A stretch of 64,000 nt of DNA from Verrucomicrobiia bacterium (lineage in GTDB: Bacteria > Verrucomicrobiota > Verrucomicrobiia > Palsa-1439). The position numbers were made by a program, and so were the translations under genes. Where the stretch lies: assembly GCA_022072455.1 (NCBI GenBank), contig JAJVHY010000023.1, positions 62,001 to 126,000 of the forward strand. Direction: 5' to 3'. Of the stretch, positions 39,649-60,750 are shown piece after piece (the first letter of the stretch is position 1; the number at the start of each line of letters is the position of its first letter). Under the pieces are notes generated by a model. That model did no database searches and was not told the origin of the DNA. It was given only the letters and a program-made list of their open reading frames with translations.

Positions 39649-40145
39649 TGCAACTTGCCCAACTCAATGCGCTGTCCCAAGCTGACTTCATCCGCATTGT
39701 TGGTCCCGTCTTTGAACATTCCCCCTGGATCGCCGAAGCCACTTGGTTAAAACGCCCGTTCCGCGACGTTGCCTATTTACACCAGTTACTCTGCGATACG
39801 GTTAGTGCCTCAAGGGAGATGGACCAACTCGAACTCATCAAAGCCCATCCCGACCTAGTCACCCGCATGAAACTCACTGCCGAATCCCAACGCGAACAAG
39901 CCAGCGCCGGTCTCACTACGCTAACCACATCTGAAATCGCAATTTTCGAAACCGCCAACCAACAATACCGGGAGAAGTTTGGTTTTCCCTTCGTCATCTG
40001 CGCCCGCCTCAATAACAAAGACACCATCCTGGCCGGCTTCCGCACGCGTCTCCACAATACGCGTGATGCCGAAATCAAAATCGCGCTCGAAGAAATCTAC
40101 AAGATCGCTAAACTCAGGTTAGACGACTTATGCCCGGCAAACTAA
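39648..40145 (+). CDS. uraD: OHCU decarboxylase
   Basis: Decarboxylates 2-oxo-4-hydroxy-4-carboxy-5-ureidoimidazoline to S-allantoin, 165 residues. The family catalytic His lies in LELIKAHPDLVTRM, and the FGFPFVICARLNNKD block and a C-terminal EEIYKIAKLRL match. Its ATG shares bases with the previous stop (TAATG), and it overlaps uraH by 16 bases. The standard order uraD-uraH supports the call. Confidence 0.95.
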   Translation: MQLAQLNALSQADFIRIVGPVFEHSPWIAEATWLKRPFRDVAYLHQLLCDTVSASREMDQLELIKAHPDLVTRMKLTAESQREQASAGLTTLTTSEIAIFETANQQYREKFGFPFVICARLNNKDTILAGFRTRLHNTRDAEIKIALEEIYKIAKLRLDDLCPAN

Positions 40146-40441
40146 GCACCCACGTCCTCGACACCATGAACGGCCGGCCCGCCGCCAATCTCCAAATCGA
40201 ACTCTTCGCCGCCGGCAAGCTGGTGAAAACCGTCCGCACCAACGCCGACGGCCGCGCCGAGTTGTTGACTAATGCGCAGCCTGGTAACTACGAAATCATC
40301 TTCCACATCGGCGACTACTTCGGTCAAAAGAACTTCCTCGATAAAGTGCCCATCCATTTCCGGATCAGCGATGCTGCTCAGAACTACCACGTCCCACTCC
40401 TATGCACACCGTGGGCGTACAGCACCTATCGCGGCACATGA
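40130..40441 (+). CDS. uraH: 5-Hydroxyisourate hydrolase (transthyretin-like)
   Basis: Opens the ring of 5-hydroxyisourate. Length 103 residues with signature STHVLDTMNGRPA (catalytic His at about 8), an Arg in the middle (TNADGRAELL), and His in QNYHVPLL. The C-terminal tetrapeptide is YRGT in place of the usual YRGS. Lacks a signal peptide, so cytoplasmic. Start ATG lies inside uraD, and the stop overlaps allC as ATGA. Confidence 0.96.
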   Translation: MPGKLSTHVLDTMNGRPAANLQIELFAAGKLVKTVRTNADGRAELLTNAQPGNYEIIFHIGDYFGQKNFLDKVPIHFRISDAAQNYHVPLLCTPWAYSTYRGT

Positions 40442-41661
40442 AAAAATCGTTATGTGGGAGGGGCATTCTTGCCCCGATCAGAAAACCAGATCGTGACAAG
40501 AATGTCGCTCCTACAATTCTGGAGCAGGCCGACATCCTCGCTAAAATCACTGACGAACCCGGTATTATCTGCCGCACATTTCGCTCGCCTGCGATGAAGC
40601 GGGCAAACGCCCAAGTTGCCCAATGGATGCGCGAAGCCGGCCTGACCGTCCGCGAAGACCCCGCCGGCAATCTCATTGGCCGACTTGCCTCAAAAAATCC
40701 GCGCGCCAAGACTTTCATCCTCGGCTCACACCTCGACACCGTGAGAGATGCCGGCAAATACGACGGCATCCTCGGCGTCCTCACTGCGATTGAAGTTGCC
40801 GGCCAACTCCGTGACTTGCCGTTCAATCTCGAAATCTACGGCTTCGCCGACGAAGAAGGAGTCCGGTTCGCCACCACTTACCTCGGCAGCGGCGCAGTCA
40901 CCGGTTCGCTCACAAAACGCAACCTCAACCGCAAAGACGCCGCCGGCATCGCGCTCGGTCAACTCATCGGCGATCTCAGCGCTTGCCGGCGTAATCCACG
41001 CGATTTGCTCGGTTACGCCGAAGTCCACATCGAACAAGGCCCGGTCCTCGATCAACGCCGGCTCGCCGTTGGCGTGGTGAAAGCAATCGCTGGCCAGACT
41101 CGCACGCGCATCACCTTTACCGGCCAAGCTGGCCATGCCGGGACAACACCGATGAAGATGCGCCGGGACGCGTTATGTGCTGCTGCGGAGTTTGTCTTGG
41201 CTGTGGAAAAGGTCGGCGTGTTGGCGACTGTCGGCACGCTCGAAATCCGCAACTCAGCCGGTAACGTCATTCCCGGTCACGTGACTTGCAGCGTGGATAT
41301 CCGTCACGAAAACGATGCCATGCGTCAACGCGCCGTGGCAACATTACGGCGATGGAAGCCTCGCGCCGGTATCAAGATGGTATGGGAAAACAAATCCGAA
41401 GTGTCAGCAGTCGCCTGTGATGGCGGACTCGTGAAGGCGATGACGCAGGCAGCTAGGAAACATCAGCGAATTGTTCCGTTACTGGTAAGCGGTGCCGGTC
41501 ACGATGCGGCTGCAATGGCAGCGATCACACCGGTAGTCATGCTCTTCGTGCGCTGCAAGGATGGAATCAGCCACAACTCCGCGGAATCAGTGAAACCCGG
41601 CGATGTGGCGAAGGCAGCAGCGATACTGCAGGCCTTTCTGCTCTCTGTATCCGAAGCATGA
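40438..41661 (+). CDS. allC: Allantoate amidohydrolase (M20/carbamoylase family)
   Basis: Binuclear metallohydrolase of 407 residues that removes the carbamoyl group of allantoate to give ureidoglycine, CO2 and ammonia. The ligand blocks are seen: GSHLDTVRDAGKYDGILG, FADEEGVRF, EVHIEQGPVLDQ, GQAGHAGTTPMKMRRDAL (dimer/substrate Arg) and the C-terminal His in GISHNSAESVKPGD. The ATG at 40438 overlaps the uraH stop (ATGA). Residues 6-26 are encoded by a 63-base palindromic element, and the conserved protein begins only after it (ILEQADILAKI). The stop codon is itself within another palindromic element. Confidence 0.9.
   Translation: MKKSLCGRGILAPIRKPDRDKNVAPTILEQADILAKITDEPGIICRTFRSPAMKRANAQVAQWMREAGLTVREDPAGNLIGRLASKNPRAKTFILGSHLDTVRDAGKYDGILGVLTAIEVAGQLRDLPFNLEIYGFADEEGVRFATTYLGSGAVTGSLTKRNLNRKDAAGIALGQLIGDLSACRRNPRDLLGYAEVHIEQGPVLDQRRLAVGVVKAIAGQTRTRITFTGQAGHAGTTPMKMRRDALCAAAEFVLAVEKVGVLATVGTLEIRNSAGNVIPGHVTCSVDIRHENDAMRQRAVATLRRWKPRAGIKMVWENKSEVSAVACDGGLVKAMTQAARKHQRIVPLLVSGAGHDAAAMAAITPVVMLFVRCKDGISHNSAESVKPGDVAKAAAILQAFLLSVSEA
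40453..40515. repeat. Palindromic element inside the allC N-terminus (GTGGGAG family)
   Basis: 63 bases, a multiple of three. Arms begin TGTGGGAGGGGCATTC and end GAATGTCGCTCCTACA; 22 of 27 arm positions pair, around a nine-base loop. It is translated as residues 6-26 of AllC (GRGILAPI...RDKNVAPT). It resembles the element at 57160 in uvrA, also translated to RDKNV-PT. Confidence 0.85.
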
Positions 41662-41692
41662 GCTTCGGGCGAAGCTCTCGCCTCGGCTACAG
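41645..41692. repeat. Palindromic element at the allC stop (CTGTAGCC family)
   Basis: 48 bases bounded by CTGTATCCGAAGC and GCCTCGGCTACAG, which pair in 11 of 13 positions. The TGA stop of allC (41659-41661) is inside it, so the last residues SVSEA are partly element-derived. It lies between the converging allC and aceB genes. Related to 45389-45467. Confidence 0.8.
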
Positions 41693-45388: not shown

Positions 45389-45467
45389 CTGTAGCCGAGG
45401 CGTAAGCCTCGGTCGACGTGTCAGCACAGAGGATTGACGAAGGCCGAAGCTCACGCTTCGGCTACAG
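45389..45467. repeat. Paired palindromes between allE and xdh (CTGTAGCC family)
   Basis: 79 bases. It starts CTGTAGCCGAGGCGTAAGCC and ends CGCTTCGGCTACAG. Each end forms its own short hairpin (CCGAGGC...GCCTCGG, and CCGAAGC...GCTTCGG), and the two ends also pair with each other. Intergenic, just downstream of the allE stop. Confidence 0.8.
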
Positions 45468-45508: not shown

Positions 45509-48500
45509 ATGTCGCAGAGCTTCGAGTTCAAACTGAACGGCGAACGTATCGTCGTTTCCGGCTTTTCCGCCAACACCTCGCTGCTCGAATATCTCCGCTC
45601 GACCGGTCGCACCGGCTCGAAGGAAGGCTGCAACGAGGGCGACTGCGGTGCGTGCACGGTGTTGCTCGACGGTCGCGCGGTGAATAGCTGCATCACGCTG
45701 CTGCCGATGGTGGCCGGGCGCCAGGTGGTCACGGTCGAGGGCTTGCATGATCATCCAGTGCAGCGTGCGATGGTCGAGCATTACGGTTCGCAATGCGGGT
45801 ACTGCACGCCGGGTTTTATCTGTTCGATGGCCGAAGGACATGCTCGGCTCAAACCGGATCAGTACTCCGCCATCGCCGACCAACTATGCGGGAATCTCTG
45901 CCGTTGCACAGGCTACCGGCCGATTCGCGATGCGATGGTTCAGGTGCTGCGGAACGCCGCCGTCCCGGCGGTCTTCCCTTCGGACTCCGACCGCCGGGAC
46001 GGCGGCGTTCCGGATTCGTACCTGGGTTTTTATCGCCCGGCATCGTTGAGCGAACTCTTCGCGCTCATGCAACGCATGCCGGAGGCGAAGTTGGTGGCCG
46101 GTGCGACGGAGATCGGCGTCGAGATCAACAAGAAGGCCAAACAATTTTCCCAACTCATCTCAACCGAGGCTGTCGCCGAGTTGAAACAGATTTCCAAGAC
46201 CAATAACGAATGGCGCATCGGCGGCGCGGCGACGTTGACCGAGATCGAAGAAGCATTGAATCACGAGTACCCGGTCATCGACAAAATGCTCTGGGTGTTC
46301 GCGTCCCGACAAATCCGCAACCGCGCCACGCTCGCCGGTAATCTCGTGACCGCTTCACCAATCGGCGACTCAGCGCCGGTATTGTTGGCGCTCGACGCGA
46401 AAGTGGAACTCGCGAGCGCCGCCGGTAAGCGCGTCGTGCCGCTCGATGAATTCTTCGTCGCTTACCGGAAGACGGCGCTGAAACCGGGCGAAGTGCTGAC
46501 GGCGATACTCTTGCCGCGCGGATTGCCGGGGCGCGTGGACTTCTTCAAGGTGTCGAAACGCCGAGAACTCGACATCAGCATCGTGGCGGCAGCGTTTCGC
46601 TTCGATGGGAAGACCGCCCGGCTCGCGTATGGTGGCGTTGCGCCGATGCCGGTCCGGGCGCGCAAAACCGAGGCGGCAGTGCTGAACGGTTCGGTTGCCG
46701 ACGCGCTGAAGGTGTTGCGCGAGGAATTTTCGCCGATTGATGACGCGCGGGGGAGTGCGGAGTACCGGCGCGGGTTGATTGTGAGTTTGTTCGAGAAGTT
46801 TGTGGCCGGTGAGGAAAGCTTTTCGCAGGATAAGCCGCTCACGTTTGTGACCGGGACGCCGACGGTCGCGTCGGATGCGTCGAAGGCCTTAAAGCACGAT
46901 AGCGCAGTCGGACATGTGACCGGCGGGGCGTTGTATGTGGATGACGAGGCGGCGCGACGGCCGATGTTGGAGGTGTGGCCGGTGATTTCGCCGCATGCAC
47001 ACGCGAAGATTTTGCGTCGCGATGCGAGCGAGACGTTGAAAGTGCCGGGCGTGGTGACGGTCTTGATGGCGGAGGACGTGCCGGGGTTGAATGACGTCGG
47101 CGTGGCGAAACACGATGAGGTATTGTTTGCCGATAAAGAGGTGATGTATCACGGGCATCTCGTCGCGGCGGTGATCGGTGAATCGCGCGAGGCTTGCCGG
47201 CGGGGGGCGGAGAAGTTTGTCGTGGAGTATGAGCCGTTGCCAGCGGTGCTTTCGATTGCTGAAGCGATCCGACAAGAGCAGTTTCATACCGAGGAATACC
47301 GGATGCAGCGCGGCGACTGTTCCGGTAAGTCACCGCAGCAAATCGACGGCGAGTTTTTCTTTGGCGGTCAGGAACATTTTTATTTGGAGACGCACGCGGC
47401 TTGGGCGGACTGCGGGGATGCCGGGGATATCTTTATTTCGTCGTCGACGCAGCATCCGTCGGAGATTCAGGCGATCATTTCGCATGTGATGCATTTGCCG
47501 CGGAACAAGATCGTCGTCGAAGCCCCGCGGATGGGCGGGGGGTTTGGCGGTAAAGAGACGCAGGGGAATACGTTTGCCGCCATTGCGGCGCTCGGTGCGT
47601 GGAAGACGAAGAAGCCGGTGCGGGTGAGGTTGGATCGCGATCTCGATATGATGATGACCGGAAAGCGGCATCCATTCTACTCCCGGTTCAAGGTTGGGTT
47701 TGATGATGCCGGCAAGATTCAGTCGGCGAAGGTGGATTTGTTTTCGGATGGCGGTTGGTCGTTGGATTTGTCGATGCCGGTGTTGTGCCGGGCGTTGTTT
47801 CATTTGGACAACGCGTATTATCTGCCGAACGTCGCGTTTACGGGGCGTGTGTGTAAGACGAATATGACTTCACACACGGCGTTTCGCGGGTTTGGCGGGC
47901 CGCAGGGGATGTTGGTGATCGAGGAGATTATAGATCGCGTGGCCCGGCATTTGGGGTTGCCGCCGGAGGTGGTGCGGGAGCGGAATCTTTATCATGGGAC
48001 CGGTGAAACGAACACGACGCACTACGGCGAGTTGATTGGCGATAACCGGATTCAGAAGATTTGGACGACGTTGAAGGAGTCGGCGGAGTTGGCGAAACGT
48101 CGCGCGGCGATTGCGGAGTTCAACCGGCAGGACTCGCGGATCAAACGCGGGATTGCGATCACCCCAGTAAAATTCGGGATTTCGTTTACGAAGTCGGAAT
48201 ACAACCAGGCCGGTGCGCTTGTGTTGATTTATCAGGACGGCACAGTGCAGGTGAACCACGGCGGCACGGAGATGGGGCAGGGGTTGTACACGAAGATTCT
48301 CGGCGTTACTTGCAGGGAACTCGGCGTACCAGCGGAGCGGGTGCGGGTGATGAAGACGCGCACTGATAAGGTGCCGAATACGTCAGCTACGGCGGCGTCG
48401 AGCGGGGCGGACTTGAATGGCGCGGCGGTGAAGAACGCTTGCGAGCAGTTGCGCGCGCGGCTCCGGCCGGTGGAGGAGAAGTTGCGGGCGAAGTCGGGGC

Positions 48501-55488: not shown

Positions 55489-58400
55489 ATGGCGAAAATT
55501 TCAGGCGATTTGATCGAAGTCATCGGCGCACGACAGCACAACCTCAAGGGCATCAATTTCAAGTTGCCGTTGGGCGAACTGATCGTCGTCACCGGCGTCA
55601 GCGGTTCCGGCAAGTCCTCGCTGGCGTTCGACACGATTTATGCCGAAGGCCAGCGCAGGTACGTCGAAACCTTCTCGCCGTACGCCCGGCAGTTTCTCGA
55701 CCGCATGGATAAACCACAGGTCGACCGCATTGACGGCATCCCGCCGGCCATCGCCATCAACCAAACCAATACCGTCAAAACCAGCCGCTCGACCGTTGGC
55801 ACGATGACGGAGTTGAACGACCACCTGAAACTCCTCTACGCGCGCGCCAGCCGACTTTTCTGCCAGCAATGTGGCAACCGCGTCCAACGCGACACGCCGG
55901 GAAGTATTCGTGATCAGCTTTCAGCGATCAGCGGTCAGATTCAAATCAGTTTTCCTGTCCCGATCCCCAAAAACTTCACCGAAACCGAAGTCCGTGCCCT
56001 CCTCGAAAAACAAGGCTACCGGCGGATTGAAACACACGGGAGCACACTCGAAGTCATCCAAGACCGTGTCGAAAACACACCGCGCCATCGCGCCCGCCTC
56101 ATCGAAGCCCTCGAAGCCGCGCTCAAAGCCGGCCAAGGGCGCGTGGCGGTGAACGGGCAGAAATTCTCGAGCGATCTGCATTGCGCCGATTGCGACATCC
56201 ACTACCGGGATGCGTCACCAAACACGTTCTCGTTCAACTCGCCCATTGGCGCCTGTGAGAAATGCCGGGGGTTTGGGCGCACGATCGGCATTGATTACGA
56301 TCTCGTGATCCCGGACGAAACCAAAACGCTCGCCGCCGGTGCAATCAAGCCATGGCAAACAGAGAGTTACCGGGAATGTCAGGATGATCTGATGGAGTTT
56401 GCCGCCAAACGCAACATCCCAACCGATATCCCGTGGCGCGCTCTCACCGACAACCAGCGCCAGTGGGTCATCGACGGCGAAGGTTCGTGGGAAGAGCGGA
56501 AATGGTACGGCGTCAAACGCTTCTTCACGTGGCTCGAAACCAAGAGCTACAAAATGCACGTCCGCGTCTTGCTCTCGCGTTACCGGACCTACGTGCATTG
56601 CCAAGCCTGCAACGGTTCGCGTCTCAAGCCGGACGCGCTGCTCTGGCGCATTGCCGGTAAAACCATCCACGACGTGATGCTGTTGCCGCTCGCCGCTTGC
56701 CGGAACCTTTTCGACAATCTGAAATTACCGGCCCCGCTCGATGAAGCCACTGACCTCCTTCTCGCCGAAATCCGTTCGCGCCTCCGCTATCTCGTCGACG
56801 TCGGCCTCGGCTACCTCACCCTCGACCGGCAATCCCGCACCCTCAGCGGCGGTGAAGTCCAGCGCATCAACCTCACCACCGCGCTCGGCACATCGCTGGT
56901 CAACACCCTTTTCGTCCTCGACGAACCCAGCATCGGTTTGCACCCGCGCGACATCCAGCGTCTCATCGGCATCCTCCAACGCCTCCGCGACGCCGGCAAC
57001 ACGCTCCTTGTCGTCGAACACGATCCCGACGTCATCCGCGCCGCTGACCGCATTCTCGACATGGGCCCCGGCCCCGGCGAACGTGGCGGCGAAATCGTTT
57101 TCTTCGGCAGGCTGCCGGAATTGAAGAAGTGCAAGCGGTCGCTGACCGGGAAATATCTCCGTGGGAGCGGCATTCCTGCCGCGACCGGTCGTGACAAGAA
57201 TGTCACTCCCACAAGTTGGTTGAAGATTCGCGCCGCTGCTGAACATAATCTCAAATCCATCGATGTTTCGATCCCGCTCAACCGGCTCGTCTGCGTGACC
57301 GGCGTCAGCGGCTCCGGTAAGTCCACGCTTGTCGAAGACGTGCTCTATCGCGGCATGCGCCGGTTGAAACACAAGCCGACCGAGCAACCCGGCACACATA
57401 AAACCATTACCGGCCATGAGCAGATTGAAGAGGTCATCATGGTCGATCAATCTCCCATTGGCAAAACCACGCGCTCCAACCCGGCAAGTTACGTCGGCGC
57501 GTTCGACGAGATTAGAAAACTCTTCGCCCGGCAACCCCTCGCCAAAGAACGCAGCTACCGCGCTGGTGACTTCAGTTTCAACAGCGGTGAAGGCCGGTGT
57601 CCCACGTGTCAAGGCAACGGCTTCGAGCACGTCGAAATGCAATTCCTCAGCGACGTCTACCTCCGCTGCCCCGACTGCAACGGCCGCCGTTATCGCGACA
57701 TGGTTCTGGAGGTGACGGTTGCCGGTAAATCCATCGCCGCCGTCCTCGCCATGACCGTCAACGAAGCCTGCGATCTCTTCGCCGGCGAAAAAGAAATTCT
57801 CCGCGGCCTCGAACCGCTCCGCGCCGTTGGCCTCGGCTACGTCAAACTCGGTCAGCCGGTTCCGACTCTTTCTGGCGGCGAAGCGCAACGCCTCAAACTT
57901 GCCGGGCATCTTTCTCAGACCACCAACGCCCGCACGCTTTTCCTCTTCGACGAGCCCACCACCGGCCTCCACTTCGACGACATCGCGACGTTGCTGCGAG
58001 CCTTCGATCAACTGCTCGCCCGCGGCCACAGTCTCGTCGTCATCGAACACAACCTCGACGTCATCCGCGCCGCCGATTGGATCATTGATCTTGGCCCGGA
58101 AGGCGGCAATGCCGGCGGTGAGATCGTCTGCGTTGGCACGCCGGAACAAGTGGCGAAATGTAAGAAGAGCCACACGGGAAAAGCTCTTGTGGGAGCGGCG
58201 TCCTCGCCGCGACCGGCCCACTCGCGGCGAGACGCCGCTCCCACATCTAATCGGTCCATCCAAATTCACAATGCGCGGGAACACAATCTCAAATCCATCG
58301 ACGTCAAAATCCCCCGCGACAAATTCACCGTCATTACCGGCGTCAGCGGCTCCGGCAAGAGCACACTCGCATTCGACATCCTCTTCGCCGAAGGCCAGCG

Positions 58401-60750
58401 CCGGTATCTTGAATCGCTCAACGCCTACGCTCGGCAATTTGTCCAGCCGTCCTCGCGCCCTGATGTCGATGCCGTCTTCGGCATCCCGCCGACTGTCGCC
58501 ATCGAACAGCGCACCAGCCGTGGCGGACGCAAGAGTACCGTCGCCACCGTTACCGAGGTCTATCATTTTCTCCGGTTGCTCTTCGTCAAACTCGGCACGC
58601 AGTTCTGCCCCGACTGCAACGTCCCGATTCGCCCGCAATCGCCGGAAGCCATCGCCGATAAAGTTACGGGCCAAAAACTGTTTGCGCCGCTCGTCGTTGC
58701 CCGCAAAGGTCTCTACACCGACCTCGCCGAGTGGGCACTCAAAAAGGGCTACTCGCATCTGCGCGTGGACGGCAAGTTGTTGCCCACCGGCAACTGGCCG
58801 CGGCTCGACCGGTTCAAGGGACACAACATCGAGCTGCCGGTGAAAACGCTGGAAGAGGCGTTGGAATATGGAAAGGGCCGAGTCGTTGTGGGAGCGGCGT
58901 CCCCGCCGCGACCGGACCACACCCGACGGAATCGCGGCGGGGACGCCGCTCCCACCTCCGAACAACTGCTCTCGATCAATCGCGCCTGTCCGAAATGTTC
59001 GCGCAGCTTCCCTGAACTCGATCCACGACTCTTTTCCTACAACTCGAAGCACGGTTGGTGTCCGAGCTGTTATGGCACCGGTCTGCAACTTGCCGGCTTT
59101 GACGAGGAACAGACGGGCGAAGAAATCTGGTGGAACGAATGGTTTACCGGCCGCGAGCGGCCTTGTCCGGCCTGTCGCGGCACGCGTCTCCGACCGGAAG
59201 CACTGGCCGTCCGGTTTCAGGACAAGAACATCGCCGATTTCGCCGCCTTGCCGGTGGAAACCGCTGCAAAAGTGTTCGCCAAAATGAAACTTCGCGGCCG
59301 GGAGGCCGAAATCGCGCGCGACATCCTCGCCGAGTTGAAATCCCGCTTAGAATTTCTCCAAGAAGTCGGCCTCGCGTACTTGTCGCTCGACCGGGCCGCG
59401 CCGACGTTGAGCGGCGGTGAAGCGCAACGCATCCGGTTGGCCGCGCAACTCGGCTCGAACCTGCGCGGCGTCTGTTACATCCTCGACGAACCAACCATCG
59501 GCCTGCATCCACGCGACAACCGGATGTTGCTCGGCACGTTGCACAAGTTGGAGGCGAAAGGGAACACGGTGGTCGTGGTCGAGCATGACGAGGACACGAT
59601 CCGGCAGGCAGAGCATATTGTGGATTTGGGGCCGGGCGCGGGAACGAATGGTGGCCGGCTGGTGGCGGAGGGCACAGTCAGCGACGTGATGCGCTGCCAG
59701 GAATCGCTGACCGGACAGTGGTTGCGGCGACCGCCGCTTGCTCCAGCACGCGAGAAGCCTGCGCCCACCAACTGGATCGAAGTTCGGAACGCGACGTTGC
59801 ACAATCTGAAAAACTTATCTGTGAAAATTCCGCTGGGGCGGCTGGTGGGAGTCAGCGGCGTGAGCGGGTCCGGCAAGAGCACACTCGTGCGCGATGTGCT
59901 GTACCGCCAAGTGAAGAGCAGTGCGATGCGCGCACTTGAAGTCGATCAGACGCCCATCGGCAAGACGCCACGGTCGTGCCCAGCGACCTACATTGGGTTT
60001 TGGGATGAGATTCGCCGGCTTTTCGCAAACATACCAGAGTCGAAGATGCGGGGCTACAGTGCGAGCCGGTTTTCGTTCAATACGGCCGCGGGACGCTGCC
60101 CGGAATGCGAAGGCCAAGGGCTAAAGAAAATCGAGATGAGTTTCCTGCCGGACGTGGTCGTGCATTGTGAAGTCTGCGCCGGGAAGCGGTTCACTGCCGA
60201 GACACTCGACGTGAAGTGGAAGGACAAGAGCATCGGCGAAGTGTTGGCGATGAATGTGGACGAGGCTGTGGGGTTTTTCGCGGCGCATTCGGCGATTCAC
60301 CGGGGACTGAAATTGTTGCAGGAAGTGGGGCTGGGTTATCTGACGCTCGGCCAGCAGTCGCCGACGCTTTCCGGGGGCGAGGCCCAACGGATCAAGCTCG
60401 TCACTGAACTTGCGAAAAGCGCCGACGCGCCCAGTCGGTCGACAACACTCTACGTTTTGGACGAGCCGACCATTGGGTTGCACATGGCCGACGTGGCGAA
60501 GCTCATTCACGTCTTGCACCGGTTGGTGGATGCCGGCAATACCGTCGTCGTGATCGAGCACAATTTGGACGTTTTGGCGGCGGCGGATTGGGTGATCGAC
60601 CTTGGCCCAGAAGGTGGCGCCGGTGGTGGTCGAGTCGTCGCCGCCGGGTCGCCGGCCAGCGTGGCGCGGACGCGGACGCATACCGGCGGGTTTCTGCGCG
60701 AGTTTATCCGCGCTCGAGCAACTCCACTTCGTAACCGTCCGGGTCGGTGA
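55489..60750 (+). CDS. uvrA: Tandem (double-length) excinuclease subunit UvrA
   Basis: DNA damage recognition ATPase of nucleotide excision repair, here 1,753 residues where about 940 is normal. Two complete UvrA units lie in one chain (about 1-900 and 920-1753), with four ABC cores: Walker A GVSGSGKS at about 37, 605, 951 and 1457, each followed by an LSGGE-[VA]-QR signature and a DEP Walker B. Each unit ends with its zinc module (CPTCQGNG...CPDCNGRR and CPECEGQG...CEVCAGKR). Residues about 558-575, 900-919 and 1133-1156 are encoded by palindromic elements. Tandem UvrAs occur in some PVC and other bacteria (family knowledge). No LexA box was recognised upstream. Weak Shine-Dalgarno. Confidence 0.96.
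57160..57213. repeat. In-frame palindromic element in uvrA, copy 1 (GTGGGAG family)
   Basis: Two 26-base arms (57161-57186 and 57187-57212) meet without a loop; 21 of 26 positions pair. Begins GTGGGAGCGGCATTCCTG and ends AAGAATGTCACTCCCAC. Translated as residues 558-575 ([17 protein letters not shown]) in the linker between the two ABC halves of the first UvrA unit. Confidence 0.88.
58188..58245. repeat. In-frame palindromic element in uvrA, copy 2 (GTGGGAG family)
   Basis: Arms of 25 and 24 bases (58188-58212 and 58222-58245) pair fully except for one extra C; nine-base loop. Begins TGTGGGAGCGGCGTCC and ends GACGCCGCTCCCACA. Translated as VGAASSPRP...RRDAAPT, exactly at the junction of the two UvrA units. 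Confidence 0.9.
58887..58955. repeat. In-frame palindromic element in uvrA, copy 3 (GTGGGAG family)
   Basis: Two perfect 24-base arms (58888-58911 and 58932-58955) around a 20-base loop; total 69 bases, a multiple of three. Begins GTGGGAGCGGCGTCCCC and ends GGGGACGCCGCTCCCAC. Translated as VGAASPPRP...GDAAPT inside the second UvrA unit, just before a CPKC zinc knuckle. Confidence 0.92.

Follow-up and report, generated by a model that had tools for sequence, protein, structure and literature searches.

Di Nocera et al. (2013) described GTAG REPs, including GTGG variants in Opitutus terrae, head-to-head dimers and in-frame insertions (PMC3733652); O. terrae held the largest number of in-frame GTAG copies, with dual inserts in both of its uvrA genes and a bias toward repair genes (PMC3733652). 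An earlier parallel is provided by the RPEs of Rickettsia, palindromic repeats that lie in frame in many unrelated genes and are read as protein (PMC10969869). Here we analyzed a stretch of 64,000 nucleotides from a Verrucomicrobiia bacterium (hereafter, the window), in which the 5' end of an allC-type gene contains a head-to-head REP dimer (BIME-like) of the GTAG/GTGG superfamily (Table 1). In-frame insertion of such palindromes is already known from a related bacterium and from Rickettsia, and the allC case adds to this phenomenon.

The closest match is O. terrae, which belongs to the same phylum (Verrucomicrobiota) and shares with the present genome the GTGG/GTAG tags, the head-to-head dimers, the RAYT association, in-frame inserts encoding 20–30 amino acids, dual uvrA inserts and a bias toward repair and replication genes. 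The host lineage differs, however, as probably does the REP sequence, the two families being compared here by description; furthermore, the present insert lies at the coupled start of a purine-catabolism gene. Rickettsia RPEs are ~150 bp long or belong to a CGTC superfamily without RAYT, whereas the copies in this genome are GTRG dimers of 42–72 bp accompanied by a RAYT gene, and the allC element, with its GTRG tag and 63 bp, has neither the CGTC tag nor the ~150 bp length of those families. The REP-RAYT systems of Pseudomonas and Enterobacteria (REPtrons, BIMEs) resemble ours in the GTAG tag, the stem-loop, the inverted pairs and the REPs flanking the RAYT gene; those REPs are mostly extragenic, however, while nearly half of the sites in this genome are in frame within genes. 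This work thus adds a verrucomicrobial lineage with frequent in-frame REP insertions, and the family provides natural examples of mobile DNA giving enzymes extra peptide segments.

Table 1. Features of the uraH-allC region and of the uvrA gene (positions in the window)
Feature	Position	Strand	Basis or remark
uraH (hydroxyisourate hydrolase)	40130..40441	+	TIGR02962 E 9.4e-31; PF00576 E 1e-31
allC-type allantoate amidohydrolase (M20 family)	40438..41661	+	NF006775 E 1e-136
REP head-to-head dimer, 63 nt, reading CGRGILAPIRKPDRDKNVAPT in the AllC frame	40453..40515	+	inverted repeat, RNA fold, genome-wide family
REP unit a: GTGG-GA-[GGGGC ATTCTT GCCCC]-GAT	40454..40478	+	unit scan
REP unit b: GTAG-GA-[GCGAC ATTCTT GTCAC]-GAT, one stem mismatch	40490..40514	-	unit scan
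Conserved AllC N-terminal helix ILEQADILAKITDEPG, directly 3' of the REP dimer	40516..40563	+	alignment; modelled helix from residue 24
Dimer of a second GTAG REP family (CTGTAGCCGAGGCG...)	41645..41692	-	inverted repeat; supplies last AllC codons and stop
Same-family REP dimer in frame in uvrA (18 residues)	57161..57212	+	also in relative G008
Same-family REP dimer in frame in uvrA (19 residues)	58189..58244	+	pattern and unit scan
Same-family REP dimer in frame in uvrA (23 residues)	58888..58955	+	empty site in G006 and G008

The allC gene sits in a purine-catabolism cluster, with a UraD-type decarboxylase gene and uraH upstream according to profile searches. Its ATG overlaps the uraH TGA stop as ATGA, and 12 nt past this ATG begins an imperfect palindrome of exactly 21 codons whose frame contains no stop; a preliminary description of this locus had reported both the overlap and a 63-base element near the start, and both reports proved accurate. 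The arms of the inverted repeat (40453–40479 and 40489–40515, 27 nt each) are 81% complementary and enclose a 9-nt loop. RNA folding of the element yields −34.8 kcal/mol (z = −7.2), and none of 200 shuffles was equally stable. Each arm constitutes one REP unit, laid out as GTRG, an unpaired GA, a stem-loop and GAY, with the tags GTGG-GA and GTAG-GA; both arms match the REP half-site pattern, for which the expectation in shuffled windows is 0. An Rfam search with the element returned no match. The N-terminus encoded from this ATG, which covers the peptides CGRGILAPIRKPDR... and NVAPTILEQADILAK, consists of MKKSL, the 21 REP-encoded residues and then the normal first AllC helix. As the preliminary description had also proposed, conserved AllC sequence resumes right after the element (profile search and alignment), and the encoded peptide resembles that of the first uvrA insert (DRDKNVAPT in AllC, GRDKNVTPT in UvrA).

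To locate further copies, we used the half-site pattern and then read the surrounding stretches of the genome. The genome of the window holds ~39 sites of the same family with 59 half-site matches, compared with 0 for a reversed-pattern control, and a unit scan listed 56 REP units in the stretches read. Many of the sites are head-to-head dimers and some are tail-to-tail, as in other multicopy GTAG-superfamily REPs with inverted dimers. The stems vary among copies and mostly remain complementary (GCGGC/GCCGC, GCGAC/GTCGC, GGGGC/GCCCC, GTGAC/GTCAC). In a sample of the class, 9 of 286 genomes contained pattern matches, and all of those with at least three matches belong to the same family as the window.

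Codon usage was scored on both flanks of the 39 sites. At 14 of them the same coding frame continues on both sides with a strong signal and no stop, and three more are in frame by homology or start context (the third uvrA insert, the RAYT gene and allC), for a total of 17 in-frame sites, one of which is doubtful, since the copy in recQ (C4:245799) pairs poorly in its stem, shows three mismatches and could be a chance match; C34:17975, which has no Pfam match, was left out of this count. As with the Rickettsia palindromic elements, the hosts are unrelated genes. Named from their Pfam domains, they include bioF, metH, an AcrB-type pump, lacZ, mutS, dnaX, a DEAD_2 helicase, a GNAT protein and uvrA (three times). 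The presence of uvrA, mutS, dnaX and the DEAD_2-type helicase among them repeats the repair and replication bias of the 2013 report. In several hosts, the insert lies between Pfam domains or just beyond one, as in lacZ (497/529), the GNAT protein (116/151), an ADH-GFO/IDH protein (before 447), dnaX (after 375) and an aldolase-SDR protein (after 254). Three sites scored as different frames, two of which (C12:97475 and C12:36035) read as gene boundaries; the third, C3:119059, is counted neither way, and at none of the 39 sites does a REP clearly disrupt the frame of a gene. The remaining sites are intergenic or were left unclassed.

The uvrA gene in the window encodes a double-length protein of 1753 amino acids and contains three in-frame REP dimers. 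UvrA of relatives (84–87% identical) reads GKGVVLAG-NTIYSTRRACPKC where the protein here has 22 extra residues including a REP peptide, which represents an empty site. The first uvrA insert occupies the same place in G008, so it probably dates back some way and has kept the frame intact since.

The substrates of RAYTs are GTAG-tagged REPs in single-stranded form (PMC8266576). A RAYT-like gene, found by a protein search and containing an HUH motif (PDHVHV) followed by YMHENP, lies on contig C12 of the same genome between REP units 97475 and 98149 of the same superfamily (97475–98172). A tail-to-tail REP dimer in turn interrupts this gene without breaking its frame, and another REP forms the end of the gene. 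In a second genome (G005, contig C43), a RAYT gene lies among five REP units, so the RAYT association typical of GTAG-superfamily REPs is seen in both. The RAYT-type transposase encoded on C12 is a plausible mobilizer of these REPs. In the surrounding region (C12:94600–100400), the RAYT gene shares an open frame with the preceding bioF, which holds an in-frame tail-to-tail REP dimer. The first five Y1_Tnp genes considered as the cognate transposase were rejected, as none is directly flanked by this REP family; the nearest case is a REP at C9:195611, ~1.4 kb from the C9 Y1_Tnp gene but inside mutS. Three of the five resemble the TIR type in that their ends are GGGGTCA-like, and GGTGCGC repeats of its own accompany the C9 gene beside mutS. 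Three longer Y1 transposases (L147, L159 and L160; 317–379 amino acids) beside GGGGTCA-like motifs resemble the type that Di Nocera et al. associated with TIRs. At C9:194100–200000, a different RAYT gene comes after mutS with its in-frame REP dimer; GTAGGGTGCGC-type repeats lie on either side of this RAYT gene, and one of them supplies the mutS stop codon TAG.

Whether the allC element is translated depends on where AllC starts. In the AllC frame, no ATG, GTG or TTG occurs from codon 2 to ATG 40594, which itself falls within the conserved SPAMKR motif of the AllC core, so that an intact AllC would require reading through the element; on this basis, the REP dimer is very probably translated as AllC residues, and ATG 40438 appears to be the best start codon available. 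A Shine-Dalgarno motif was found neither upstream of this ATG nor upstream of CTG 40519. The AlphaFold2 model of AllC has a mean pLDDT of 88.9, while the REP-encoded segment is mostly a low-confidence tail (pLDDT <50 at residues 1–13, mean 51 at residues 11–20). The model suggests that this segment is probably unstructured and set apart from the folded enzyme, which would therefore tolerate it.

The preliminary description had named a conserved AllC N-terminus over the element residues as the finding that would speak against an insertion; the relatives lack these 21 residues, and the sequence directly after them is conserved. In relatives without the uraH overlap, AllC begins M-xxxAKxxMERIxAL, and in those with the overlap it begins MRRCDEL; past the element, the AllC of the window goes on as ILEQADILAKITDEPG, colinear with both. 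The nearest AllC proteins are ~50–60% identical, and among genomes of the same family only that of the window carries allC, so no close empty site is seen for allC itself.

We therefore favor, with a probability of roughly 0.8, a REP dimer copied by a RAYT into the allC 5' end, translated from ATG 40438 and tolerated as a near-neutral tail. A RAYT single-strand transposase would most likely have made the copy; because 63 nt is a multiple of three and the frame is free of stops, AllC translation, starting at the ATG that overlaps the uraH stop, would run through the element, and a disordered tail away from the fold would be tolerated by the enzyme. The insertion may then persist as near-neutral selfish DNA, like its in-frame counterparts elsewhere in the genome, many of them located at domain junctions.

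A different history is suggested by CTG 40519, which aligns with the allC ATG (TGATG) of uraH-coupled relatives, so that the REP may at first have inserted between uraH and allC, with the start shifting upstream only afterwards. The ancestral ATG would have become this CTG, the new ATG overlapping the uraH stop would have taken over, and the hairpin within the captured N-terminus would tune AllC output. We consider these events unlikely; if they did occur, it was a selfish palindrome that changed how two coupled genes are joined. The same alignment, drawn from relatives with the same gene order, also speaks for the dimer being a non-coding spacer, with AllC starting after it at the CTG and the open frame incidental, as does the caution in the 2013 report that start misannotation may make many non-coding REPs look like 5'-terminal parts of genes (PMC3733652). 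The lack of an in-frame ATG, GTG or TTG before 40594 and of a Shine-Dalgarno-like motif upstream of 40519, the ATGA overlap available at 40438 and the 16 other family copies (one doubtful) in frame within genes all argue against a spacer, making it decidedly improbable. Thus, between the two options of the preliminary description, insertion just after a coupled start is favored by the missing later start codons, and a later start with the element as spacer survives weakly, through a rare CTG start. At this coupled start, the usual objection to N-terminal REPs, that of a misannotated start, can for the most part be answered.

The stable fold, which begins 15 nt 3' of the start-codon A, could also mean that the element has gained a regulatory role as a hairpin, limiting AllC translation or stabilizing or cutting the uraH-allC mRNA, and REPs are thought to work as RNA elements in some species (PMC3733652). 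Copies are dispersed over unrelated genes and intergenic sites, however, and every allC relative examined lacks the insert at this place, leaving such a role, which is compatible with the favored insertion and tolerated tail, only a very slight chance. Although the open frame and its peptide are compatible with the protein, the shuffling result, the 59 half-sites against none in the control and the absence of the residues from all AllC relatives examined already contradict a native N-terminus whose palindrome is a chance effect of composition, which has next to no probability.

The second GTAG REP family at the 3' end of allC has 10 half-site matches in the genome, compared with 0 in the control. 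Another of its dimers lies at 45389–45467, at the start of a xanthine-dehydrogenase-like gene. Farther into this gene, at 45950–46012, the reading frame runs through an inverted repeat whose 24-bp arms pair perfectly around a 15-nt loop. This repeat, between the [2Fe-2S] and FAD domains, occurs only once in the genome and is thus not part of the allC REP family.
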